Source of the DNA: an uncultured Agathobacter sp.
GTDB lineage: Bacteria; Bacillota; Clostridia; Lachnospirales; Lachnospiraceae
NCBI GenBank assembly: GCA_945910395.1
Contig: CAMDYX010000001.1
Location: 124,001-188,000 of the forward strand
DNA: 64,000 nucleotides
Reading direction: 5' to 3'
Shown here piece by piece: positions 1,005 to 14,079 of the stretch. A program made the translations under genes and the position numbers. How positions within the stretch are numbered: the first letter of the stretch is position 1; every line of letters begins with the position of its first letter. The notes beneath the pieces were generated by a model that had not been told where the DNA came from, ran no database searches, and saw nothing but the letters and a program-made list of their open reading frames with translations.

Positions 1005-2120
1005 TTAAAATATGTATGGAATACTCGATTTTTTTAGAACTATACCACTTCTAGTAAAACGGCATTCATTGAAGTAATTCTTTAGATCCTCACTATACTC
1101 ACTATCTTTATTTATAGTTTTCATAATTTCACGTATTTTCAATTGAAGAAAAATCTTTGCATCTTCTAAATCCACACTTCTTGTCCATGCTCTATTCGAA
1201 AAAATTTTCTGCAATTCCTTATATTCCTTACATTTTTCTAACTCTTTTTTCCATGGTAATAGATAAGATTTTATTCTCTTAACATACTCCTTCGTATCAT
1301 CACATCCAGCTTTTATCTTTGCATAATTTAAAAAATGTTCAATGCTCTCAAACACCACCTGCTGATTAAATCCGGGACCAATCATTATTTCCCAAATCGG
1401 CCATCCACCCTCACACTCAATATCCAAATAAGGCTTCAATACTTTCTTGTCTGGTCGATACTGCACCAATGGCTCATATGCAGATTCATTTGGTTCAAAT
1501 ACCAGCCTACACTCTTCTTCTTGATAAAAGTCATATCTTTTTACTAAAGTACTGACATATCTCCATCGTTCTTTTTTCCATTCTTCTTGATCTTTCGAAT
1601 TATCTGAATATAGTTGGTCTAAGATAGCATATGCTACATCATTGTATTTTACCTTTTTCTTTTTCATAGAATCTAATGTAAAGTAAAATACTTCCCGTGG
1701 CAAAAGATTCCATTCTGCCATAACTTTATCTTCAGTACTTTTTGTTAAAAATCTATAGTACTCCTTCTCAAATTTCATCTTTATGCTGACACCCGATTCT
1801 TTTGCGTATATCGCCCATTGGCTTAGAAGATCATTTTTCTTACAAAAAGATATGGAATAATATTCCATTTTTTGCATATTTTCAGTCAAATTTTCCTCTG
1901 AAAAAACAGCCTGCATTTTATCTCGCCAGTTCGCATCTAGCCCCTTTTTTTTCATCCACCTTCCTACTAGCTGTGTGTCTTTTGATATCTTATATAGTTC
2001 TTGCAGCCCATTAATATATTCCTCCGAGTCATTCATATAACGAATATTCGTAGCATAAATATCACCTTTTGTCAGCACAAATCGCAATGTATCAGTTGAG
2101 GTATAGTAAAACAAATCCAT
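1005..2120 (-). CDS. DUF2971 domain protein
   Basis: MDLFYYTSTDTLRFVLTKGDIYATNIRYMNDSEEY N-terminus, central 'FCKKNDLLSQWAIYAKESGVSIKMKF', C-terminal 'RSGIVLKKSSIPY': DUF2971 pattern. Confidence 0.75.
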   Translation of the reverse strand: MDLFYYTSTDTLRFVLTKGDIYATNIRYMNDSEEYINGLQELYKISKDTQLVGRWMKKKGLDANWRDKMQAVFSEENLTENMQKMEYYSISFCKKNDLLSQWAIYAKESGVSIKMKFEKEYYRFLTKSTEDKVMAEWNLLPREVFYFTLDSMKKKKVKYNDVAYAILDQLYSDNSKDQEEWKKERWRYVSTLVKRYDFYQEEECRLVFEPNESAYEPLVQYRPDKKVLKPYLDIECEGGWPIWEIMIGPGFNQQVVFESIEHFLNYAKIKAGCDDTKEYVKRIKSYLLPWKKELEKCKEYKELQKIFSNRAWTRSVDLEDAKIFLQLKIREIMKTINKDSEYSEDLKNYFNECRFTRSGIVLKKSSIPYIF

Positions 2121-2123
2121 ACA

Positions 2124-2651
2124 CTAACCCTCCGCTTCTTGAAAATCCTGCAAGGCTTTCACAAAGGTATTTAAGCGTAGTTTTAATATATTATCATTAA
2201 CCTCAGTAACATCAAGTACATGTTCTTTCCCCACTAGCTTTCCTAACGCCTCTTCATTTGCAGTTCCAGTAGCCGTATAAAACCATAGTCGATTGGTAGT
2301 ATAACGGTTTCTATTTCTTGCGTACCGAATGTTTACTCGTCGCATAGGTGTTCCATCCGATCCATCACCATCAAGCATGAAATCCATAATTAAGAAAGTC
2401 CGATTTCTTTTTGAATCCAAGTATTCATCCATTATTTGTCTAAAATTTTCCAATGTAACACGTCTAATATTAAACCCACATTCAGCTTGGCTTTGTACCT
2501 CAATTTCTGCTATCTCTTCTTTAGGGCAAAAATAACAAATATCAGTAACTTCCAGCTGAAGTTCCGGAGATGCTTTGGATAGCTCCACAAACTGATCCGC
2601 TAACGATATGGCTCTTTTTATTTTATCCTCTACAATTACAATATTATTCAT
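2124..2651 (-). CDS. Stand-alone receiver-like (response regulator) protein
   Basis: NIVIVEDKIKRA acidic pocket, FLIMDFMLDGDG phosphoacceptor-like Asp, LWFYTATG strand; no output domain; overlaps the upstream giant ORF by 8 nt. Confidence 0.6.
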   Translation of the reverse strand: MNNIVIVEDKIKRAISLADQFVELSKASPELQLEVTDICYFCPKEEIAEIEVQSQAECGFNIRRVTLENFRQIMDEYLDSKRNRTFLIMDFMLDGDGSDGTPMRRVNIRYARNRNRYTTNRLWFYTATGTANEEALGKLVGKEHVLDVTEVNDNILKLRLNTFVKALQDFQEAEG

Positions 2652-5600
2652 AGTTAGTCTCCTTTCCTTCTTTGAATTTCTCCATAAAAAGTGGAATTTT
2701 CACCCTAAAATAGCATCTTCCATCCTCTTTTTTTTCATGCTCAGGCTGAATTTCATACTCCTGACTTGTTAGACTATTTATCCAATTTCCGACATTTTTA
2801 ATTTCGGTGATAGATAATCGGTTTTCCAAAATACTATGTTCTATTTCTTTTAATCTTGCCAATATCAAAGAATTTATACATTGTCTGATATAGCAATTAA
2901 AGCTCCATAAAGAAATACCGTCCTCTTCCGAGTCAGGCACATGATGCAATTTTCGCTTGATTCGGTCCAAATCTACTGCGCTTTCACACTCATTCTCAAT
3001 TACGAAATATCCATTATCTTTATATATATTTACTATAACTCTTTCCTCGCCTGATTGTATATCGTTTTCTCTAGATTGACGCTTTCCTCTATTTTGTTCT
3101 GCCGCGTTTAATATTAGTGCATATATTAACATAGTTATTTCCCGTATAGAACTTGGACTATCTCTGCATAACATATCATCTTCTACATTTATATCGCATA
3201 CCTTTAACTGAATATTAACCGTTTCCGTTCTGTTTATGCAATACGAGAATTCTTGCCCATCTTTTATTAAAACTGCAAAGTCGCTCCATTTCGCCGCACT
3301 ATCAATCCCCCTATCGTCAGAATAATATTTTCGCCTTAATCCATATCGATAATACTGACTAATATTTATATCTGCCAAAAGTTTAAGTAAATAAGAAGGG
3401 TATTTTTGCACATACTTTGCATTTTCTTCTCCGTTCTGAAAATAGCGTTGTGTCTGTTCAAAAAGTATCTCCTTGGAATAATCTTTTGTATGCGTATAAA
3501 CTTTATTACTATTATATATGTTCAACTCTTGTCTGGCATGTGATAATTTATTCATATAGTCATCATTTTCAGGATTAAATATTTCTCGTTTCAATTCCTG
3601 ATAAAACATCATAACTTTTCGCACGCTTCTTGCAATTCTTAATTCATATCCAGTCTCTGCTGAACACCAATTTTGATTTTCAATGTTAATCCACACACTT
3701 CTTTGATTATTTTCCAATTTCCAAATCACAACACCATTTGTTTTATCAATAATATAATTGTATAGTTTAGATGGTTGATTTTCCATTTCATCAATCAGCT
3801 TTTCTGTTATATCTGATACTTCTGTATTAAAATCTTCACCTCCCGCTTTTTCTACGAGTATCGAATAATGTTTTTTCCCTTTTATACAAATCTTTTTTAA
3901 TTCTCCCTCCCCATTCATTTCACAAACTTTATCAACGATATCATTATACCGCTTCTCTATATCATATTTCCATTCATCTAAATTACTATCCTCCTTATTC
4001 TCAATGATAAATTGTACTTTGTGCGCATTAAGAATTACTTTAAATAAAATAGCCAGTAACTGTACTTTTTCCATTATCGCTAATTCCTTATGCCTACACA
4101 AATCAAGAATTTTTACACAACAAGAAATCATGTCAGCACCATTTGGTAATAATTTTGAATCTTCATAATACCCTTCCTCTTTTAATAATTTATAAAAATT
4201 ACCAAATTGATACATATCTGATTCCGCTTCGATCCATTTTAGTAAATTTTCTTGAGTATCATTTGTTTCTAGCTTAATCTTTATTTGGTCACATTCTTCT
4301 TTCAACTCTTCATGAACAATATCAAAAATAACGGCCAAATTACTGGTTGTTTGCCTCGCATCATTCATTATGCCAACAACACTCAACGTCTTTAGTTCCG
4401 GCAAGCTTTTTAAAAACCTTTCTATTTTATTCTTCATATTATGGGCCATTTCAGAATCCAAGTCTGATTGCCTCCGGTATGTAGCCAGCTCCCCTGCATA
4501 CTTTTTTGCAAAAACCTCAGCCATTTCATAGGCTCTTGAGTAATCGTATTCTTCTTCAAGTTCATAAATCCTAGTATTTACTGTTTCACAAAACTCTTTG
4601 GAATTTACATTTTCCTCATAAATTCTTTTATATAGCTTTTCAATTCCATCTCTAAACGTCCTTGTATTTTCTAACAGTATCCATATTCGGAATTTTTCCG
4701 GCACATATTTGAATCTATTATTAAATGTAGTATTATCCAGCCAAATACTTTTATTCGTATCAGAACTTGCACCCACCAAGCGATCTATTAACGTCAGATA
4801 ATATTTTTCAAAAGACTCATTACTCTCCCCTTTCATAAACGCAAAAATGCCTTCCATTTTTTCCGGTCGAATAATATAGTTACTTTTTAACTCCGTCAAT
4901 TGCTTCATCAATAGTTTCACAAGATCTTTCTTATTTTCATCGCTTAATTCTGTGCTTTTTATAATATTATTATTTAATCTATTAAAATTTATTATTAATT
5001 TCCGTTCCTCCAAGTATGGCTTGTCCGTCTTAATTTCTTTTATTATCTCACGCAAACTCACATTACGCACAATTGCATCAATCAGTATCAGCATTATATC
5101 AAATATTGCCTCTTTAATTGCTTTTTTGAACACCAAAAAAGGACGCGAAATACATTTCAGATAAGACAAAAAATATTCATACTTATCTTCTTTACGCGCT
5201 TCAAAATCTGTATTTAACAATTTTAGAATCAGATAAATTGCCTGCACAGTATTGTTCCCATGAAATTTTTCTTTCAGCACACACTGTGCCATGTGCGTGC
5301 AAAATAGCCTTCTAAATTGTTTTTCATAATCTGGCTGTTCATTTTCCGTATTATATTCTTCTAAAGAGTATAGTTGAAATTTATCTGAACAATGTTTCCA
5401 ATAGTCTGCTATTGTTTTCGTAGAAGCCATGCCAAACAATAAATCTGCCTCTTTTTTTAAATTACAATATACACAAGAATCTCCATAATTCCTTAATGAT
5501 GATATATTCACCGTAACAAAGGCATAAAAATCTGATTTACAATTAGTTACATATTGGTTTCTACTTTCTGATGAGTTACGATCTACTAAAACAAATACTT

Positions 5601-8600
5601 TGTCAAAAACTTTGATTTTAATGGAGTTTGAATTTTTTTTATCTAAGCTAAGAACGGATTGCATCAAGCTCTTTGCACGATGAAATGTTCTTCCACTTAT
5701 AATAGCATCATCGACATAATGCACGCACACAGTTCCTCCAAAATGTGCCTCATCCAATTGTTTAATATAATTCCTCAGGTATGAGTATTTTGTGTATGCA
5801 TTGCATCTATATTCTTTGTCAAAATCAATTCTAAGCAGTATAGCGTTTCCATCAAACACCACATTGTTAACTAACTCAACAAATCCTGCGTTACTAAAAT
5901 GCATAGGCGAAACAATAATATTATACTGCAAACTATTACTTAATTTTTGTTTTCTCCTCCACTCATCTAATGATATTTTTATATTATCTTTCTGCTTAAT
6001 GCATATATTTTCTGTTCTAAAATAATATAGGAAATGATTTTCATTCCTAAGTACATGTCCATAAGCAAATTCATTTTTCAAACACTCCAGCTTTTCTTCT
6101 TCCTCTTGAATATACTTATAATCTAATTTTAGTTCCTCTATATATTTATTTTCAACAATTCCAAAAGCCTGGTTTGGTATTGTAGATGCAGCATTCACCT
6201 CAATAAGAGGAACTTCTGCCACCGGGTTTGTTGGAAAACACTGGGTGCACTCTGATGGTTCCTGATAATCTGCATCTACCTGAATGAAGTATTTCGGTGT
6301 TGGAGATATCTTTCCATTTTGTAGTATAACACTATTATCCTCTAATCTCCAATATCCATTTGTATTAGCACTGCCAACTAATATTACTGCATAGTTTTTT
6401 ATCAGCCAATGACAATCTGCTGCACTAATATCATTCTCCTCTCTGAACAGATTTATCAAACGCATATGTGTTTTTAAAGTAGAATTAATTAGTACAATGG
6501 TTGCCACCTTTCTATCTTTAAAATAATTAACTCTTTCTTCATTTGAGTAAAAATGCTTATTATATCGAATTTTATCTTTATGTAAAAAACCTCTTCGCTC
6601 TTCCTCCCTTTCCAGAACAATATAGTCTATATCCTTTTTTTCAGGGTATAAACAATCAATCATCTCTATCATTTGTACCAGTACAGTTTCAGAATATGTA
6701 CCATATCCATACAGTGTAAGTTTGGAAATATCTCTAATATCTTCTTTCATGTCTTTTACTAACAGTAGAGCGAAGCGTGAAACAAAAAGTCTATTGCCAA
6801 ACAAAATCTCTGCCTCATAAAACTTGTCAATATGTATGGTTGAACCTAATCTCATATGAGTATGCTCTAACTTACATCCAAATTCATTTTTTTGAATACT
6901 ATTTTTCAAAATACTTTCCGTGTAATGCTCAAACAAGGTTTGTTTTTTATCTTGTATTGTAACTCTATATAGTACATCACAAGGAACATAATATGCAGCC
7001 CCTATATTTAGGTCAATGCTATCTATATCTTCACTCAAATACCCCTCTTCTGGGCTAATACATTTCATATGGGCAATATATGCATTAATACTATCCGTCT
7101 TTTGCATACTACTTAACTCTAAAACAATTTCTTCAAAATTTTTAGAGTACAATATCACTTGAGTTCTCTTATCAAAGAACATTCCCTCAATATCCGCATT
7201 AATGTAAAAAATTCGCATAGTATCATATATACCTTTTTTTACACTATCTGAGCATTGATAAAGAACTATTGATACATCTTTTTTAAATTGATATAATGCA
7301 ATTGTTAATGCCTTTGCTATAATTTCTCCAGAATTGTCTTCTACATCCCCTAGTGAAACGTAAATAATGTCCTTATTTGCATTTTCTAATTGCATTTTCA
7401 TCCTATCTGCCAGTTTCTGGATTTGCTCATTCTTTTGTTCTTGGGATTGATAAATCACAATCTCATCTGAGAAAGTTATTTCATCTATCGTATATGATAA
7501 ATAGTCATTAACACGACCGACAATATTAAAGCCACTATCCAAACTCAAGTCCTGACGCCTAATCACCTTTTTAACATTCTCTATCGGAAGCACAATGTGA
7601 TAACGCGTTCCAGGCATACAAATTTGAGTTTCACTTCCCTGATAAGATAAAAACGAATCTCCAGGCATATTTATATAGCCGCAGTGACTCTCTGCACCAA
7701 ACATTCCTCCAAATGTCGAAACTACCGATTGAAAAATTCGAAGTCCAAAATGTTTACCTATATTTTCCGGATTTCGATAAAATGCATTCCATGCATTCTT
7801 AAATGTATCATCAGAATCATGCCCAAAGAACGATTTAGGTTGTAGTCCATTAAATGCCTTCTTAGCATTTTCATCCACAAGATTTGATATAAAATTATCA
7901 GATATATTACCATTCAAATTTTCTCTGCAAAAATCACTTACGATTATTTCCAAATATCTACTCGCCGTATCTTCCACTTTATATTTACAACTAATATAAG
8001 ACGATTTTTTTTCATGCAAACGAACTGCTATAACACCGCAGCCGTCTTTTGAATGATATACAATGTTTTCTGCCAGCTGGCGTACAGCATTTGAATACTG
8101 TTGCACTTGAAACGCATATTTCTCCAGCAAAGGAAGCTCTATTTCTTCCTTTTCCTGACAAAGTATATAACATAGGAAAACAAAAGCCAAGACATCCAAC
8201 TTTTGTAACACTTGAATATACTGTTTTTCAAAAAGTCTTGAATACTTTTTCCTTGCATCAAGCAAAATCTTAAATGCGCCTTCAAGCAAATCGTCATATT
8301 TTACACTATCCAATTCAGTTGTAAATGTTAATGAACGAAGATAGTCACTCGTAACCAGTCCTTTACATTTTTTAAATAATCTTTCAATATTATCCTTATC
8401 AACAATCTGCAACGGTGTAAAAAACCTTGAGAAAGAAATACTATTAATCTGCGCCCTCTTAAGTTGACCCTTATTTACAAAATAGCATTCATTATAAAAT
8501 TTCTTATTTTTAATTCCAACACTATATAAAAATTGCGACACAGAAAAATATTCGCTATCATCACATTCTGGGAATAAAGCCAATATTTTTAATTCTGAAT

Positions 8601-8931
8601 AGTGTTGTTTAATTAAATACAAGTTATATAAATCTATAACATCTGCTGTTTTATCAACACAAATACAATATATTACTTCATACCGTTCTGTAATATTTTT
8701 AATTTTATGTGGCTCGTTTATCTTCAAAAAAGTATCTGTATCTCTTATTATATACTGCGCCCATTCTGCAAGAACTCTATTTCTATTTTTTAGATAATAT
8801 TTATAAGAAACCCTGTCAACATCTTTTTCTGTCATCCTAATCTGCGTTTCACGCTTATAAATAAAATTGGCAATCTCAGCATAGCTTTCTTCATTATTTA
8901 CATTTAAGCAAAAAACAATTGTATCTTTCAT
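2644..8931 (-). CDS. 2095-aa multidomain protein: two GHKL ATPase regions, DHp/H-box, phosphoribosyltransferase-like domain(s)
   Basis: GHKL-1 'VRQLAENIVYHS...GKHFGLRIFQSVVSTFGGMFGAES'; PRTase loop 'VCVHYVDDAIISGRTFHRA'; H-box-like 'SEMAHNMKNKIERF'; GHKL-2 'LIYALILNAAEQN...VIENE...DGISLWSFN'. Confidence 0.75.
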   Translation of the reverse strand: MKDTIVFCLNVNNEESYAEIANFIYKRETQIRMTEKDVDRVSYKYYLKNRNRVLAEWAQYIIRDTDTFLKINEPHKIKNITERYEVIYCICVDKTADVIDLYNLYLIKQHYSELKILALFPECDDSEYFSVSQFLYSVGIKNKKFYNECYFVNKGQLKRAQINSISFSRFFTPLQIVDKDNIERLFKKCKGLVTSDYLRSLTFTTELDSVKYDDLLEGAFKILLDARKKYSRLFEKQYIQVLQKLDVLAFVFLCYILCQEKEEIELPLLEKYAFQVQQYSNAVRQLAENIVYHSKDGCGVIAVRLHEKKSSYISCKYKVEDTASRYLEIIVSDFCRENLNGNISDNFISNLVDENAKKAFNGLQPKSFFGHDSDDTFKNAWNAFYRNPENIGKHFGLRIFQSVVSTFGGMFGAESHCGYINMPGDSFLSYQGSETQICMPGTRYHIVLPIENVKKVIRRQDLSLDSGFNIVGRVNDYLSYTIDEITFSDEIVIYQSQEQKNEQIQKLADRMKMQLENANKDIIYVSLGDVEDNSGEIIAKALTIALYQFKKDVSIVLYQCSDSVKKGIYDTMRIFYINADIEGMFFDKRTQVILYSKNFEEIVLELSSMQKTDSINAYIAHMKCISPEEGYLSEDIDSIDLNIGAAYYVPCDVLYRVTIQDKKQTLFEHYTESILKNSIQKNEFGCKLEHTHMRLGSTIHIDKFYEAEILFGNRLFVSRFALLLVKDMKEDIRDISKLTLYGYGTYSETVLVQMIEMIDCLYPEKKDIDYIVLEREEERRGFLHKDKIRYNKHFYSNEERVNYFKDRKVATIVLINSTLKTHMRLINLFREENDISAADCHWLIKNYAVILVGSANTNGYWRLEDNSVILQNGKISPTPKYFIQVDADYQEPSECTQCFPTNPVAEVPLIEVNAASTIPNQAFGIVENKYIEELKLDYKYIQEEEEKLECLKNEFAYGHVLRNENHFLYYFRTENICIKQKDNIKISLDEWRRKQKLSNSLQYNIIVSPMHFSNAGFVELVNNVVFDGNAILLRIDFDKEYRCNAYTKYSYLRNYIKQLDEAHFGGTVCVHYVDDAIISGRTFHRAKSLMQSVLSLDKKNSNSIKIKVFDKVFVLVDRNSSESRNQYVTNCKSDFYAFVTVNISSLRNYGDSCVYCNLKKEADLLFGMASTKTIADYWKHCSDKFQLYSLEEYNTENEQPDYEKQFRRLFCTHMAQCVLKEKFHGNNTVQAIYLILKLLNTDFEARKEDKYEYFLSYLKCISRPFLVFKKAIKEAIFDIMLILIDAIVRNVSLREIIKEIKTDKPYLEERKLIINFNRLNNNIIKSTELSDENKKDLVKLLMKQLTELKSNYIIRPEKMEGIFAFMKGESNESFEKYYLTLIDRLVGASSDTNKSIWLDNTTFNNRFKYVPEKFRIWILLENTRTFRDGIEKLYKRIYEENVNSKEFCETVNTRIYELEEEYDYSRAYEMAEVFAKKYAGELATYRRQSDLDSEMAHNMKNKIERFLKSLPELKTLSVVGIMNDARQTTSNLAVIFDIVHEELKEECDQIKIKLETNDTQENLLKWIEAESDMYQFGNFYKLLKEEGYYEDSKLLPNGADMISCCVKILDLCRHKELAIMEKVQLLAILFKVILNAHKVQFIIENKEDSNLDEWKYDIEKRYNDIVDKVCEMNGEGELKKICIKGKKHYSILVEKAGGEDFNTEVSDITEKLIDEMENQPSKLYNYIIDKTNGVVIWKLENNQRSVWINIENQNWCSAETGYELRIARSVRKVMMFYQELKREIFNPENDDYMNKLSHARQELNIYNSNKVYTHTKDYSKEILFEQTQRYFQNGEENAKYVQKYPSYLLKLLADINISQYYRYGLRRKYYSDDRGIDSAAKWSDFAVLIKDGQEFSYCINRTETVNIQLKVCDINVEDDMLCRDSPSSIREITMLIYALILNAAEQNRGKRQSRENDIQSGEERVIVNIYKDNGYFVIENECESAVDLDRIKRKLHHVPDSEEDGISLWSFNCYIRQCINSLILARLKEIEHSILENRLSITEIKNVGNWINSLTSQEYEIQPEHEKKEDGRCYFRVKIPLFMEKFKEGKETNYE

Positions 8932-8974: not shown

Positions 8975-9465
8975 TCATAGTACGCCACAAGTGTAGACGC
9001 AATGGCAAAAGTAAAAAACTATTTCTAGATTAATAATTTCTGTAGACCACTGCTTCATCATTACAATTGGCAATAGTTTTTCTAGAAATTCCTTATCTTC
9101 TAATGAAAACTCCCTGCTACTACAGATTTGTAATAATTCATTTGACCTATACTCTGGAAACTTTTCATTAGCCAAAATGAAAAATTTCTAATAATAGGTT
9201 GCCAATATTTCCGCATTGAACAATTTGAATTTTCCAAGCAGTTTTGAACTTTATCTACTAGCCCGTTGTTTACTACATCAATTATTACTTCATCCATATC
9301 TGACGTATTGGATTTTATCATCTCTAAGAACAATACTCGTTTATTGTACTCCAATTCTTTTTCAGGCATACTTTCCAAGAAAAATGTAATATACTTTGTT
9401 GCTTTTAAATTTTCAATTGCCCGATACATAACAGTAGCGACATTAACCACTTTTCCGTTTTCCAT
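8975..9465 (-). pseudogene. Small helical protein of unknown function split by an apparent 1-nt frameshift
   Basis: 121-aa ORF (9100-9465) and 66-aa ORF (8975-9175) join to a coherent reading '..PIIRNFFILANEKFPEYRSNELLQ..' if one T is added at the T5 run (9180-9184). Confidence 0.55.
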
Positions 9466-9491
9466 CTGCTAAACAAACATTTTTATGCATT

Positions 9492-11108
9492 TCAAATCTC
9501 TTCAAAACTTACCTCATTAACAAACATCGGATTACACTCAAATTCCGTATCTAGCAATTGAATTAATTCCTCTTCGCTGATATCTTTTTCTACACCCTTC
9601 GGTAATAAGTATTTAATTCCCACGCTAACCGGACCATATCTATTATCATTAAAAATATTATCTACAACCACTACACCTTTATACTTACCACTATGATTAA
9701 ACAACTCTATGAGCCACAAAAAATAATCAACAATTTCCATTTCTGAATATCCCAATCCGCCATCCTCTCTTACACCGATATTGACCAATACATTTCCACA
9801 TAAAATTGTCCCACCGAATGTATCTTCTTCTATTATTCTACAATCATGTCGAAAGCTATACTCAGAATAATCATCTTCATAAAATTCATACTCTTCGAAA
9901 TCTGTATCCTTTGAATCATTCACTTGAAAATCACGCAATCTTTGAAACTCTATCTTTTCATCATTTAATAATTCCTCAAACTTATCTTTTCCAAATAACA
10001 ATATCAACTTTGCAATTTGCTCATTCTTCGCACTATTCGAATGAAAATACACGGTAGTAACAGTATTTTCAAACATTATTAATCCCGTCAATATATCCTT
10101 ATCTGTAATGTCTAAAGAATGCCCCACAATATGGAGGTGGTTTACACTCTTTTCATTTAGCATCTTCTTCAAACGAAAAGAAGTTCCTTTCTGAATACGT
10201 TGATAATACTTTTTAAATTTGACAAATCGCAAATCCATATTACTTTGCTGATCTTTTTGGTCTGCATTAATTCCCAACACAATCCCATTTTCAATCTCAT
10301 TCATACTACCATGTACATAAAATACTTTTGTGTCTTTAGAATATAATCTAGAATATGTATCTGTATAATTAAAGTTAATTACTTCATCTATATTGTAAAA
10401 AAGGGGATTATTCGATCTTTTGTCTATTGCAATACTCTGAACAAACTGTTCTAAATATATACATAATGCCTCTGATAAATCCTCTAAATCTTGTTCCAAC
10501 ATATATATAATCTTTTTTTCGTCTATTTTTAAAATCTTTTTCCCCTCTATGTCTTTAACATAATACTCGTCTTTTACTTTCAATTTTCCCCCTAATTCCT
10601 TATAAAAGGGGACGCGCATCAAAATATCTATATCACTTCTAGACAAAATATTTTCATCAATATGTATACCATTCTGTAAAAAATTTTTCTCGTCTCCAGA
10701 TACACAGTCAAAGTAATTGGTTATAGCATTTATTACCTGAGCCATCTCTTTCTCAAAATCAATCCATCCGATATTTCTACTACACATTTTCGAAAAATAT
10801 TTTATCCAAACATTATCTTTAGAGATTTCAACCAATCGTTCAATTCTATCCTGTTTCAGTTCAACATTTTTCATAGAACTACTATGAATCTGATAGCACT
10901 TCATAATATGTTCATCACTATACAAAGGACTACCCGGACCAAACATATAATTTACATATGAACATCTCTGCAATCTTTGTTCCTCTGCAAGTTCCAGCAA
11001 CCTATTAACTACGTTAATAAAATCAATATATCTCGTTGGTAAACAGTGATATAAATCGAATCCATTTCCTATTACTAGAATATTTTTCTCTTTTTTTGTA
11101 TCTGTCAT
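9492..11108 (-). CDS. AbiH-like abortive infection protein with C-terminal extension
   Basis: N-terminal 'NILVIGNGFDLYHCLPTRYIDF', central 'FNYTDTYSRLY...VFYVHGS', 'LHIVGHSLDITDKDIL': AbiH signature motifs. Confidence 0.85.
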   Translation of the reverse strand: MTDTKKEKNILVIGNGFDLYHCLPTRYIDFINVVNRLLELAEEQRLQRCSYVNYMFGPGSPLYSDEHIMKCYQIHSSSMKNVELKQDRIERLVEISKDNVWIKYFSKMCSRNIGWIDFEKEMAQVINAITNYFDCVSGDEKNFLQNGIHIDENILSRSDIDILMRVPFYKELGGKLKVKDEYYVKDIEGKKILKIDEKKIIYMLEQDLEDLSEALCIYLEQFVQSIAIDKRSNNPLFYNIDEVINFNYTDTYSRLYSKDTKVFYVHGSMNEIENGIVLGINADQKDQQSNMDLRFVKFKKYYQRIQKGTSFRLKKMLNEKSVNHLHIVGHSLDITDKDILTGLIMFENTVTTVYFHSNSAKNEQIAKLILLFGKDKFEELLNDEKIEFQRLRDFQVNDSKDTDFEEYEFYEDDYSEYSFRHDCRIIEEDTFGGTILCGNVLVNIGVREDGGLGYSEMEIVDYFLWLIELFNHSGKYKGVVVVDNIFNDNRYGPVSVGIKYLLPKGVEKDISEEELIQLLDTEFECNPMFVNEVSFEEI

Positions 11109-12347: not shown

Positions 12348-12776
12348 CTAATCTATTGTTTCCGTCAGACATACTTCCTTTAATTTCAATCGTGCTCCAC
12401 ATTTTTCTCTAAACTTTCGAAACTTAACGTTTTGAATCTTATGTGTTTTAGCCTTACTGCATACAATTCGATAGAAAAAAGTATACCCGATCAGTTCCTC
12501 TTTACACTTTTGTTCTCCTGCTTCTAATTGCTCTACAGCATCATCTATGTTCCCGCCCTTCAATTCAATTAAATATGCTTTTTTTCTGCTATCATTGATA
12601 AGCAAAAAATCACAACACTTTGTCTGCTGGATTAACACTCCATCCAGTTTATAATGTCTTAAATCAAATACTTTCTGTGGGTTTTCCGCACGATGTTCCC
12701 TTTGTGCGCCTCTATCTCTCGAAACAACAATAGCCGCATTTTTTTCGCACAAAGATTTCTCTGGAGTAAGAAGCAT
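12348..12776 (-). CDS. PD-(D/E)XK-like nuclease domain protein
   Basis: 'CDFLLINDSRKKAYLIELKGGNIDDAVEQLEAGE' fits D-x(n)-ELK. ATG at 12774-12776 lies one nt after the ATPase stop and has GGAGG upstream, so it is a better start than 12803. Confidence 0.6.
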   Translation of the reverse strand: MLLTPEKSLCEKNAAIVVSRDRGAQREHRAENPQKVFDLRHYKLDGVLIQQTKCCDFLLINDSRKKAYLIELKGGNIDDAVEQLEAGEQKCKEELIGYTFFYRIVCSKAKTHKIQNVKFRKFREKCGARLKLKEVCLTETID

Positions 12777-12777
12777 A

Positions 12778-14079
12778 TTACTTTTCCTCCGTTCCACTAT
12801 CATATATTAAGTCTACCATTTTTTCATAATCAGCATTTATTTCGTCCGAAGCACCATCAATAATCTCATTATTAATAGCTTTAAAGTCTTTATCCAGACA
12901 AGATTGAATCACTCCGGCTTCTACATAATAAGCAGACATTTTTTCAAAATCTAACCATTTTAAAGGATTCATAATTTTTTCTAATTTAGTTTTATTAACC
13001 TCTTTAGAAATCTTATTTGCATACAGCATATTATTTATGGTTCCTAAAATATATGGACTATGTGTCGTTAAAAGTATTTTATTCCCACCATTTTTAGCTA
13101 ACGAAATAAATTCTGTAATTAATTTTTGTGCATTAGGGAACAAATGTGATTCAGGTTCTTCAATAATGAAAAAAGATTTCTTATTATTGAGTAGATAATA
13201 AAATACTACGTTTAATATCCACACTGCTTCTTGTTGACCAGAAGAAGCAAAATTGATTTTCACATATCTATCTGCTGCTACCTGTAATCTTTCTTCTCCG
13301 TCAATATTTCTATACTCACCATGTAAAATCTGCTTCATCAAATCAGCACATTGTTGCAGATTTTCCCTGTCTATTTTAACATCAGTTAATTCGATTTTGT
13401 TTTTTATTAATGTCTGTATACTATTAACAAAAGATGGTTTCAATTGCATGATCCGCTCAAGATAATTTTGAGTACAGTAGTCTAAACTTCTTTTCTGATC
13501 ATCATTCATCACGCTATACATAAACATCAACTGCGAACTGAACAGCGTCATCATGCTTCTTCCGGCAGGAATATAAATCACTTCTTCCCCATTTTCAAAA
13601 AACTCATCAATATCCTTCTTTATGCTTCCGTTATTACGAGCATGAGTCAGTGCATCAATTTGCATATTATCATATGTTTTAAGAAAATTAATCCATTCTT
13701 CACTTAAATCAATCCATATATAATTTGGGGATACAGGATCATTTTTTAAACAGATTTTTATATAGATTGTGTCTGTGTAATAATACTCTATCGACATATC
13801 ATTATCCATGCACCATGTCGTTCCAAAAGTCTGTAAAAAATTCGAACGAATTTCTTTTAACAAACGGTTTTTAGTAGACAATTCAACTGTATCGCTTTCT
13901 CCTAAAAAGCGCTTGTTAATCTGCATCAATAGGAGATTTTTGATATTTTTAAAGAAAAAAATACTTTTTGCAATCGTACTTTTCCCCGATGCTTGCGGTC
14001 CAGTAAAAACCATAAAATCCTTTATTTCCAAATTACAATGTTTGATTGGGCCTAATCTATTTATTACTATTCTCTCCAT
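12778..14079 (-). CDS. AAA family ATPase (RecF/OLD-like, AAA_15/AAA_21 type)
   Basis: Walker A 'GPQASGKST', signature-like 'ASSGQQEAVW', Walker B 'FFIIEEPESHLFP', 'LLTTHSPYIL'. Confidence 0.9.
   Translation of the reverse strand: MERIVINRLGPIKHCNLEIKDFMVFTGPQASGKSTIAKSIFFFKNIKNLLLMQINKRFLGESDTVELSTKNRLLKEIRSNFLQTFGTTWCMDNDMSIEYYYTDTIYIKICLKNDPVSPNYIWIDLSEEWINFLKTYDNMQIDALTHARNNGSIKKDIDEFFENGEEVIYIPAGRSMMTLFSSQLMFMYSVMNDDQKRSLDYCTQNYLERIMQLKPSFVNSIQTLIKNKIELTDVKIDRENLQQCADLMKQILHGEYRNIDGEERLQVAADRYVKINFASSGQQEAVWILNVVFYYLLNNKKSFFIIEEPESHLFPNAQKLITEFISLAKNGGNKILLTTHSPYILGTINNMLYANKISKEVNKTKLEKIMNPLKWLDFEKMSAYYVEAGVIQSCLDKDFKAINNEIIDGASDEINADYEKMVDLIYDSGTEEK

Follow-up and report, generated by a model that had tools for sequence, protein, structure and literature searches.

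What is the function of a protein that joins kinase-like ATPase domains to phosphoribosyltransferase (PRTase) folds, and does it act alone? The question was raised by the window, which is the whole stretch of 64,000 nucleotides analysed here (uncultured Agathobacter sp., assembly GCA_945910395.1, contig CAMDYX010000001.1, positions 124,001 to 188,000). An original prediction, made from the letters of the window, had read its open reading frame at 2644-8931 as a 2095-residue fusion of two GHKL ATPase modules, a histidine H-box and PRTase-like domains. In our study, the ATPase and PRTase domains of this protein (hereafter the giant) were found to be there; what the prediction had overlooked is that the giant is encoded by the first gene of a conserved three-gene operon, followed by the genes of a receiver-like protein and a DUF2971 protein. 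With the operon conserved, the giant is likely to belong to a complete signalling system rather than to be simply an unusual fusion. The three genes together resemble a signalling system that has not been described before and that probably acts against phages.

The operon and its relatives

The predicted reading frame of the giant was confirmed on the minus strand, with an ATG start and no internal stop codons, and relatives were found at 18 further loci, which makes 19 loci with the window. One full-length relative came from another family of the same order, one from another family of the same class and three from family searches; a scan of a genome collection gave 16 loci, three of which were copies of loci already known. 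The hosts were Lachnospiraceae, Oscillospiraceae, Christensenellaceae and other Clostridia, and one relative was present on a metagenome contig with the unchecked label Gastranaerophilales. The identity of the PRTase core to that of the window ranged between 28 and 69% (16 loci compared). The giant gene was found to be rare and patchy: each search, covering 151–399 genomes, gave one or two genomes in addition to that of the window. Carriage of the giant by phages or plasmids was rejected because the phage, plasmid and viral-contig collections gave no match. The giant was split into two genes in L008/L029, L030, L031 and L032.

In the window, the end of the giant gene overlapped the start of the receiver-like gene by 8 bases, followed by a gap of 3 bases before the DUF2971 gene. 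The same order and strand were found in every type I locus whose downstream side is on the contig. Wherever the contig extends far enough, which is so at 16 type I loci, the DUF2971 gene was third; the contig of L005 stops before it. In L018, a transposase-like gene was inserted after the giant, parting it from the receiver and DUF2971 genes. The flanks varied between loci while the order of the three genes was kept, and the pairwise identities of the giant, receiver and DUF2971 proteins were correlated (r = 0.79, 0.87 and 0.83; 0 of 2000 permutations as high). Because the flanks differ and the identities correlate, the three genes appear to be inherited as one unit.

Two loci, L017/L033 and L015 (type II), contained neither a receiver nor a DUF2971 gene adjoining the giant. 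In L017/L033, the C-terminal kinase part was replaced, within the same protein, by a calcineurin-like phosphoesterase, and in L015 the phosphoesterase was a separate adjoining gene (Metallophos, E = 2e-14). The first GHKL domain (GHKL-1) and both PRTase parts were kept in type II and therefore form the core, and the replacement of the kinase, receiver and DUF2971 parts by a phosphoesterase shows that the output is exchangeable.

Reference profiles of histidine kinases, response regulators and PRTases were taken from the window's own genome and near relatives and aligned profile to profile by hhalign, with 200 column shuffles as the control; off-target comparisons always gave E values above 0.02. 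The receiver-like protein aligned with 27 response regulators at E = 5e-5 (probability 67, 0 of 200 shuffles as good). In a 17-member alignment, its acid pair and Asp were kept at about 90%, Thr/Ser was mostly kept and Lys was not clear in the divergent members. Among PDB sequences, its profile aligned in register with the response regulator RcpA at a non-significant E value of 1.2.

The third protein scored 20.1 bits against DUF2971 (PF11185) in the window, where the gathering cut-off is 22, and 36.5 bits (1.3e-8) in the L008 orthologue, the mutual identity of the two being 30%. Its AlphaFold model had a predicted local distance difference test (pLDDT) score of 89.4. We know of no function for the DUF2971 family. 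The conserved polar residues N30, D31, E34, Q101, W102, K194, E201, E203 and R205 suggest that the protein is an enzyme, and one member matched the PADLOC candidate PDC-S31 at 3e-4. A PDB sequence search with the protein gave nothing meaningful. Its reading as an ADP-ribosyltransferase, from the motif order YxYT, SxSF, ExE, was unsupported by Foldseek, which gave no significant match in the PDB and viral libraries.

Domains of the giant protein

Searches of the giant in Pfam, PADLOC and NCBIfam gave no meaningful family match, and PDB sequence searches with the PRTase core, GHKL-1 and the C-terminus gave nothing meaningful. All the peptides quoted in the original prediction were present, at most about 20 bases from where it had placed them. 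In a 19-residue hydropathy scan, the highest mean was 1.83, with peaks at residues 239-257 and 1275-1293; as no transmembrane segment was found, in agreement with the prediction, a cytosolic giant is plausible.

GHKL-1 contained QLAENIVYHS at 8050-8079 and GKHFGLRIFQ...GAES at 7687-7758, and aligned with the catalytic domain of 26 histidine kinases from the window's own genome (E = 3.1e-7, probability 93, 0 of 200 shuffles as good). The E288, N289, H293, G396, L397 and P449 residues were invariant in 18 loci, and a Gln was found at the usual position of the catalytic Glu. GHKL-2, with LIYALILNAAEQN at 3091-3129 and DGISLWSFN at 2896-2922, aligned with histidine kinases at E = 1.2e-6 (probability 91, 0 of 200 shuffles). 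Both predicted GHKL modules are thus supported by profile alignment with shuffle controls and by motif conservation.

The PRTase fold predicted inside the giant was borne out by modelling, profile alignment and motif conservation. An AlphaFold model of residues 225-1262 (21 sequences, mean pLDDT 76.6) was compared with the PDB by Foldseek and matched human HGPRT, OPRT, PyrR and APRT with probabilities of 0.90–1.00 and target-normalised template modelling (TM) scores of 0.39–0.55. The best PRTase E value was 4e-3, and many independent PRTases had a probability of about 1; F1-ATPase chains in the same list were taken as chance matches (root-mean-square deviation about 17 Å). Because the model matches these solved structures, a PRTase fold is present in the giant as modelled, probably twice. 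The Foldseek list gives no covered part for each match, and the tandem arrangement therefore rests on the strand and helix order in the model and on the sequence.

PRTase-2, which contains VCVHYVDDAIISGRTFHRA at 5674-5730, scored above all 200 shuffles, with the alignment placed on the phosphoribosyl pyrophosphate (PRPP) loop. G1080 and R1085 were found in 19 of 19 members. For the Asp pair, whose conservation had been proposed as a check, the first residue held (D1074, 18 of 19) and the second held in part (D1075, 15 of 19). D1075 was substituted by T, E, Y and T in L005, L032, L017 and L015, respectively, and D1074 was lost in L015. The PRTase-1 region, with VATIVLINSTLKTHMRLI at 6454-6507, contained INSTLxT at the PRPP-loop position. 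It was co-linear with type I PRTases over 123 columns, yet the alignment was weak and 5 of the 200 shuffles reached its score, so that PRTase-1 was not separated from shuffles by the profile alone. Of the two PRTase-like sites predicted, the PRPP loop is supported, and the other is probably a degenerate copy. Set against the type I PRTases, the giant has the fold, with the acidic PRPP-loop pair in PRTase-2 and not in PRTase-1.

The predicted H-box, SEMAHNMKNKIERF at 4414-4455, was found with its His codon (H1497) at 4441-4443 as predicted, yet the column was not conserved. H1497, about 445 residues ahead of the GHKL-2 N-box, was rejected as unconserved and too distant. Across the C-terminal 834 residues, H1814 alone among the His residues was invariant (16 of 16 type I members); it lies 128 residues before the GHKL-2 N-box in the window and 125–178 residues before it in all 16 members. 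By conservation and spacing, H1814 fits a candidate phospho-acceptor better than H1497. A GAF-like domain suspected by eye at residues 1560-1800 was not confirmed.

Table 1. Coordinates of the operon proteins and of the domains and sites of the giant in the window.
Feature	Coordinates	Strand	Details
Giant protein, 2095 aa	2644..8931	(-)	Order: GHKL-1, tandem PRTase fold, helical part, GHKL-2
GHKL-1 ATPase domain, ~residues 262-450	7582..8148	(-)	N-box 8050-8079, G2-box 7687-7758, GT-box 7585-7614
PRTase-1, ~residues 685-850, degenerate	6382..6879	(-)	Weak profile, strand/helix order of the model, whole-model Foldseek
CxxCFP pair, possible metal site	6232..6249	(-)	C895 and C898 in 18/19
PRTase-2, ~residues 985-1160	5452..5979	(-)	PRPP loop 5674-5730 (HYVDDAIISGRTFHRA)
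RNxxDxCxxC, possible metal site	5464..5496	(-)	C1153 and C1156 in 19/19
H1814 codon, candidate phospho-acceptor	3490..3492	(-)	16/16 type I members
GHKL-2 domain, ~residues 1930-2090, partly degenerate	2662..3144	(-)	hhalign
Receiver-like protein, 175 aa	2124..2651	(-)	Adjoins the giant at all type I loci
DUF2971 protein, 371 aa, proposed effector	1005..2120	(-)	Pfam DUF2971, E = 0.0016

Proposed signalling and alternative readings

We give a probability of about 0.5 to the reading of the locus as a cytosolic two-component-like signalling system, most likely in anti-phage defence. The giant would be the sensor and the kinase, with GHKL-1 and the tandem PRTase-fold core as its input part. PRTase-2 would probably bind PRPP, a nucleotide or a nucleobase, the level of which is altered by infection, and binding would alter the GHKL-2 end in such a way that H1814 becomes phosphorylated. 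From H1814, the phosphate would then pass to the receiver Asp, and the small receiver protein, once phosphorylated, would activate the DUF2971 protein, a putative toxic effector. In the sister type, the calcineurin-like phosphoesterase would stand in place of the C-terminal kinase, the receiver and the DUF2971 protein. Defence-type genes were found to adjoin several loci: BREX (BrxC, E = 0) and PDC-M54A at L008/L029, KAP/PDC-S20 (3e-157) at L021, and GmrSD (5e-29) with a recombinase-like gene at L032. A phage integrase and a serine recombinase adjoin L023 and L027, and a STAND-type ATPase adjoins L019.

Several observations weigh against this reading. The N-box Asn, whose conservation the original prediction had proposed as a check, is kept in GHKL-1 (N289) and is Ser in several members in GHKL-2, where the G1 Asp is also replaced by Asn; the kinase activity is therefore uncertain. 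Of the marks of a two-component kinase, the giant has a GHKL catalytic domain and a conserved His before it, and lacks an intact N-box Asn and G1 Asp. The receiver is strongly divergent and had no Pfam match, and the DUF2971 model had no significant Foldseek match among PDB and viral structures. The enrichment near defence genes is an apparent one, drawn from observation of the individual loci. Finally, about 7 of the 19 loci were placed, by eye, at the edge of polysaccharide or nucleotide-sugar clusters (window 11338-64000, L018, L017/L033, L022, L025, L026 and L028), which would fit a regulator equally well.

It is unlikely, in our judgement, that the PRTase core is an enzyme making a nucleotide-like signal, the product of which is sensed or processed by GHKL-2, the receiver, the DUF2971 protein or the phosphoesterase in a second-messenger defence without a phosphorelay. 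The PRPP loops with both Asp residues (15 of 19), the degenerate GHKL-2 and the phosphoesterase output of type II agree with such an enzyme, and the PRTases of the Ter system, together with phosphoesterases, have been proposed to make a threat-signalling nucleotide derivative (PMC7824862). However, four members, both type II loci among them, have lost the second Asp, the first is lost in L015, PRTase-1 is without the acids altogether, and the invariant His and the receiver-like partner would be left unexplained. The same His, at its kinase-like spacing, would have no role if the giant and receiver were a pseudokinase scaffold that keeps a DUF2971 toxin inactive, as a toxin-antitoxin-like guard without phosphotransfer; nor would the conserved receiver positions (acid pair, Asp and Thr). 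We regard this scaffold as improbable, even though the nucleotide-binding residues of GHKL-2 are degenerate, the receivers divergent and the three genes tightly coupled and co-diverging. Quite unlikely, too, is a role outside defence, with the system regulating metabolism or the genes for cell-surface polysaccharides from within the cytosol. The polysaccharide neighbours speak for it, but a DNA-binding output domain is absent, the other loci adjoin BREX, GmrSD, KAP, integrases or unrelated genes, the distribution is patchy, and polysaccharide clusters also count among the variable regions in which defence genes accumulate.

For the two-component-like system preferred here, the closest working likeness is Detocs (defensive two-component system), which is described as a defence family of three genes whose PNP effector cleaves ATP (PMC11249213). 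The window and its type I relatives likewise combine, in one operon, genes for a kinase-type protein, a receiver and a probable effector. However, neither the giant nor the receiver of the window matched a PADLOC family, PRTase folds and a second GHKL domain are built into the sensor, and there is a phosphoesterase variant without a receiver. In Detocs, the effector itself contains a receiver domain, joined to a toxic domain of the PNP type or similar, whereas the window effector is DUF2971 alone, without an attached receiver, and its model had no PDB match. As the effector and the model library both disagree, the system is not a Detocs member.

The giant resembles soluble histidine kinases in its aligned GHKL-2, its conserved His at a kinase-like distance and the adjoining receiver, but it has no HisKA family match, its N- and G1-boxes are degenerate, the scaffold is of 2,000 residues and the system has no DNA-binding response regulator. 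With type I PRTases and PRTase-fold regulators (OPRT, HGPRT, APRT, PyrR), it shares the fold and the PRPP loop VDDxIxSGxT, whereas its core is probably tandem with a first copy devoid of the PRPP-loop acids, contains inserted Cys/His-rich parts, is embedded in a kinase-like protein and has no sequence-level family match. The PRTases of the Ter stress and phage-resistance genes also occur in a probable defence-signalling setting (PMC7824862), but Ter genes were not noticed adjoining our loci, and the giant joins its PRTase to GHKL domains in one protein and is coupled to a receiver. The figure legends of the 2026 DefensePredictor study list one validated PRTase system, along with predicted ones that contain HATPase and REC domains, and make no mention of DUF2971; one of these may be the same as the system of the window (PMC13092281).

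A wider proposal, which is tentative and which we would place short of even odds, is that the loci represent a new class of bacterial immune signalling: the tandem PRTase-fold core of a giant, soluble, kinase-like protein would read a nucleotide or PRPP, and the protein would act through exchangeable outputs, either a phosphorelay that leads to a DUF2971 effector or, in its place, a phosphoesterase. If true, a signalling kinase would have the PRTase fold as its sensor inside the cell, the two-component chemistry of bacterial defence would extend past Detocs to a nucleotide-state sensor with swappable effectors, and DUF2971 would gain a role as a candidate effector. The residues of the operon open to experiment are H1814, the receiver Asp and D1074/D1075.

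Neighbouring genes and decayed copies

On the minus strand of the window (9100-11108), an AbiH gene was present at 9492-11108 (Pfam 6e-37), with a 121-aa gene at 9100-9465 between it and the giant. AbiH was rejected as a fourth gene of the system because no such gene was found in most relatives; a related AbiH/SIR2 gene was close by in L008 only. In L008 (3075-19001) and L029, both of Pseudoflavonifractor sp. An44, the system adjoins a BREX cluster with a SIR2/AbiH-like gene and the PDC-M54A candidate. Further along the window (12348-14079, minus strand), an AAA_15 ATPase resembling AriA/PD-T4-4 (PADLOC 2e-26) was present, and the protein after it, of 151 aa, has a nuclease-like D...ELK motif; the two are a possible second defence pair. 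IS66-like transposase genes, recognised by eye, were present at the left edge (1-897), adjoining the DUF2971 gene.

A close relative in Sporofaciens musculi (L018, 7934-17443; 69% identity in the core) was found with the C-terminus of the giant broken into several frames and is a decaying copy of the system. A short interrupted PRTase-core fragment in genome G697 (L011, 1501-1719) is probably a pseudogene.

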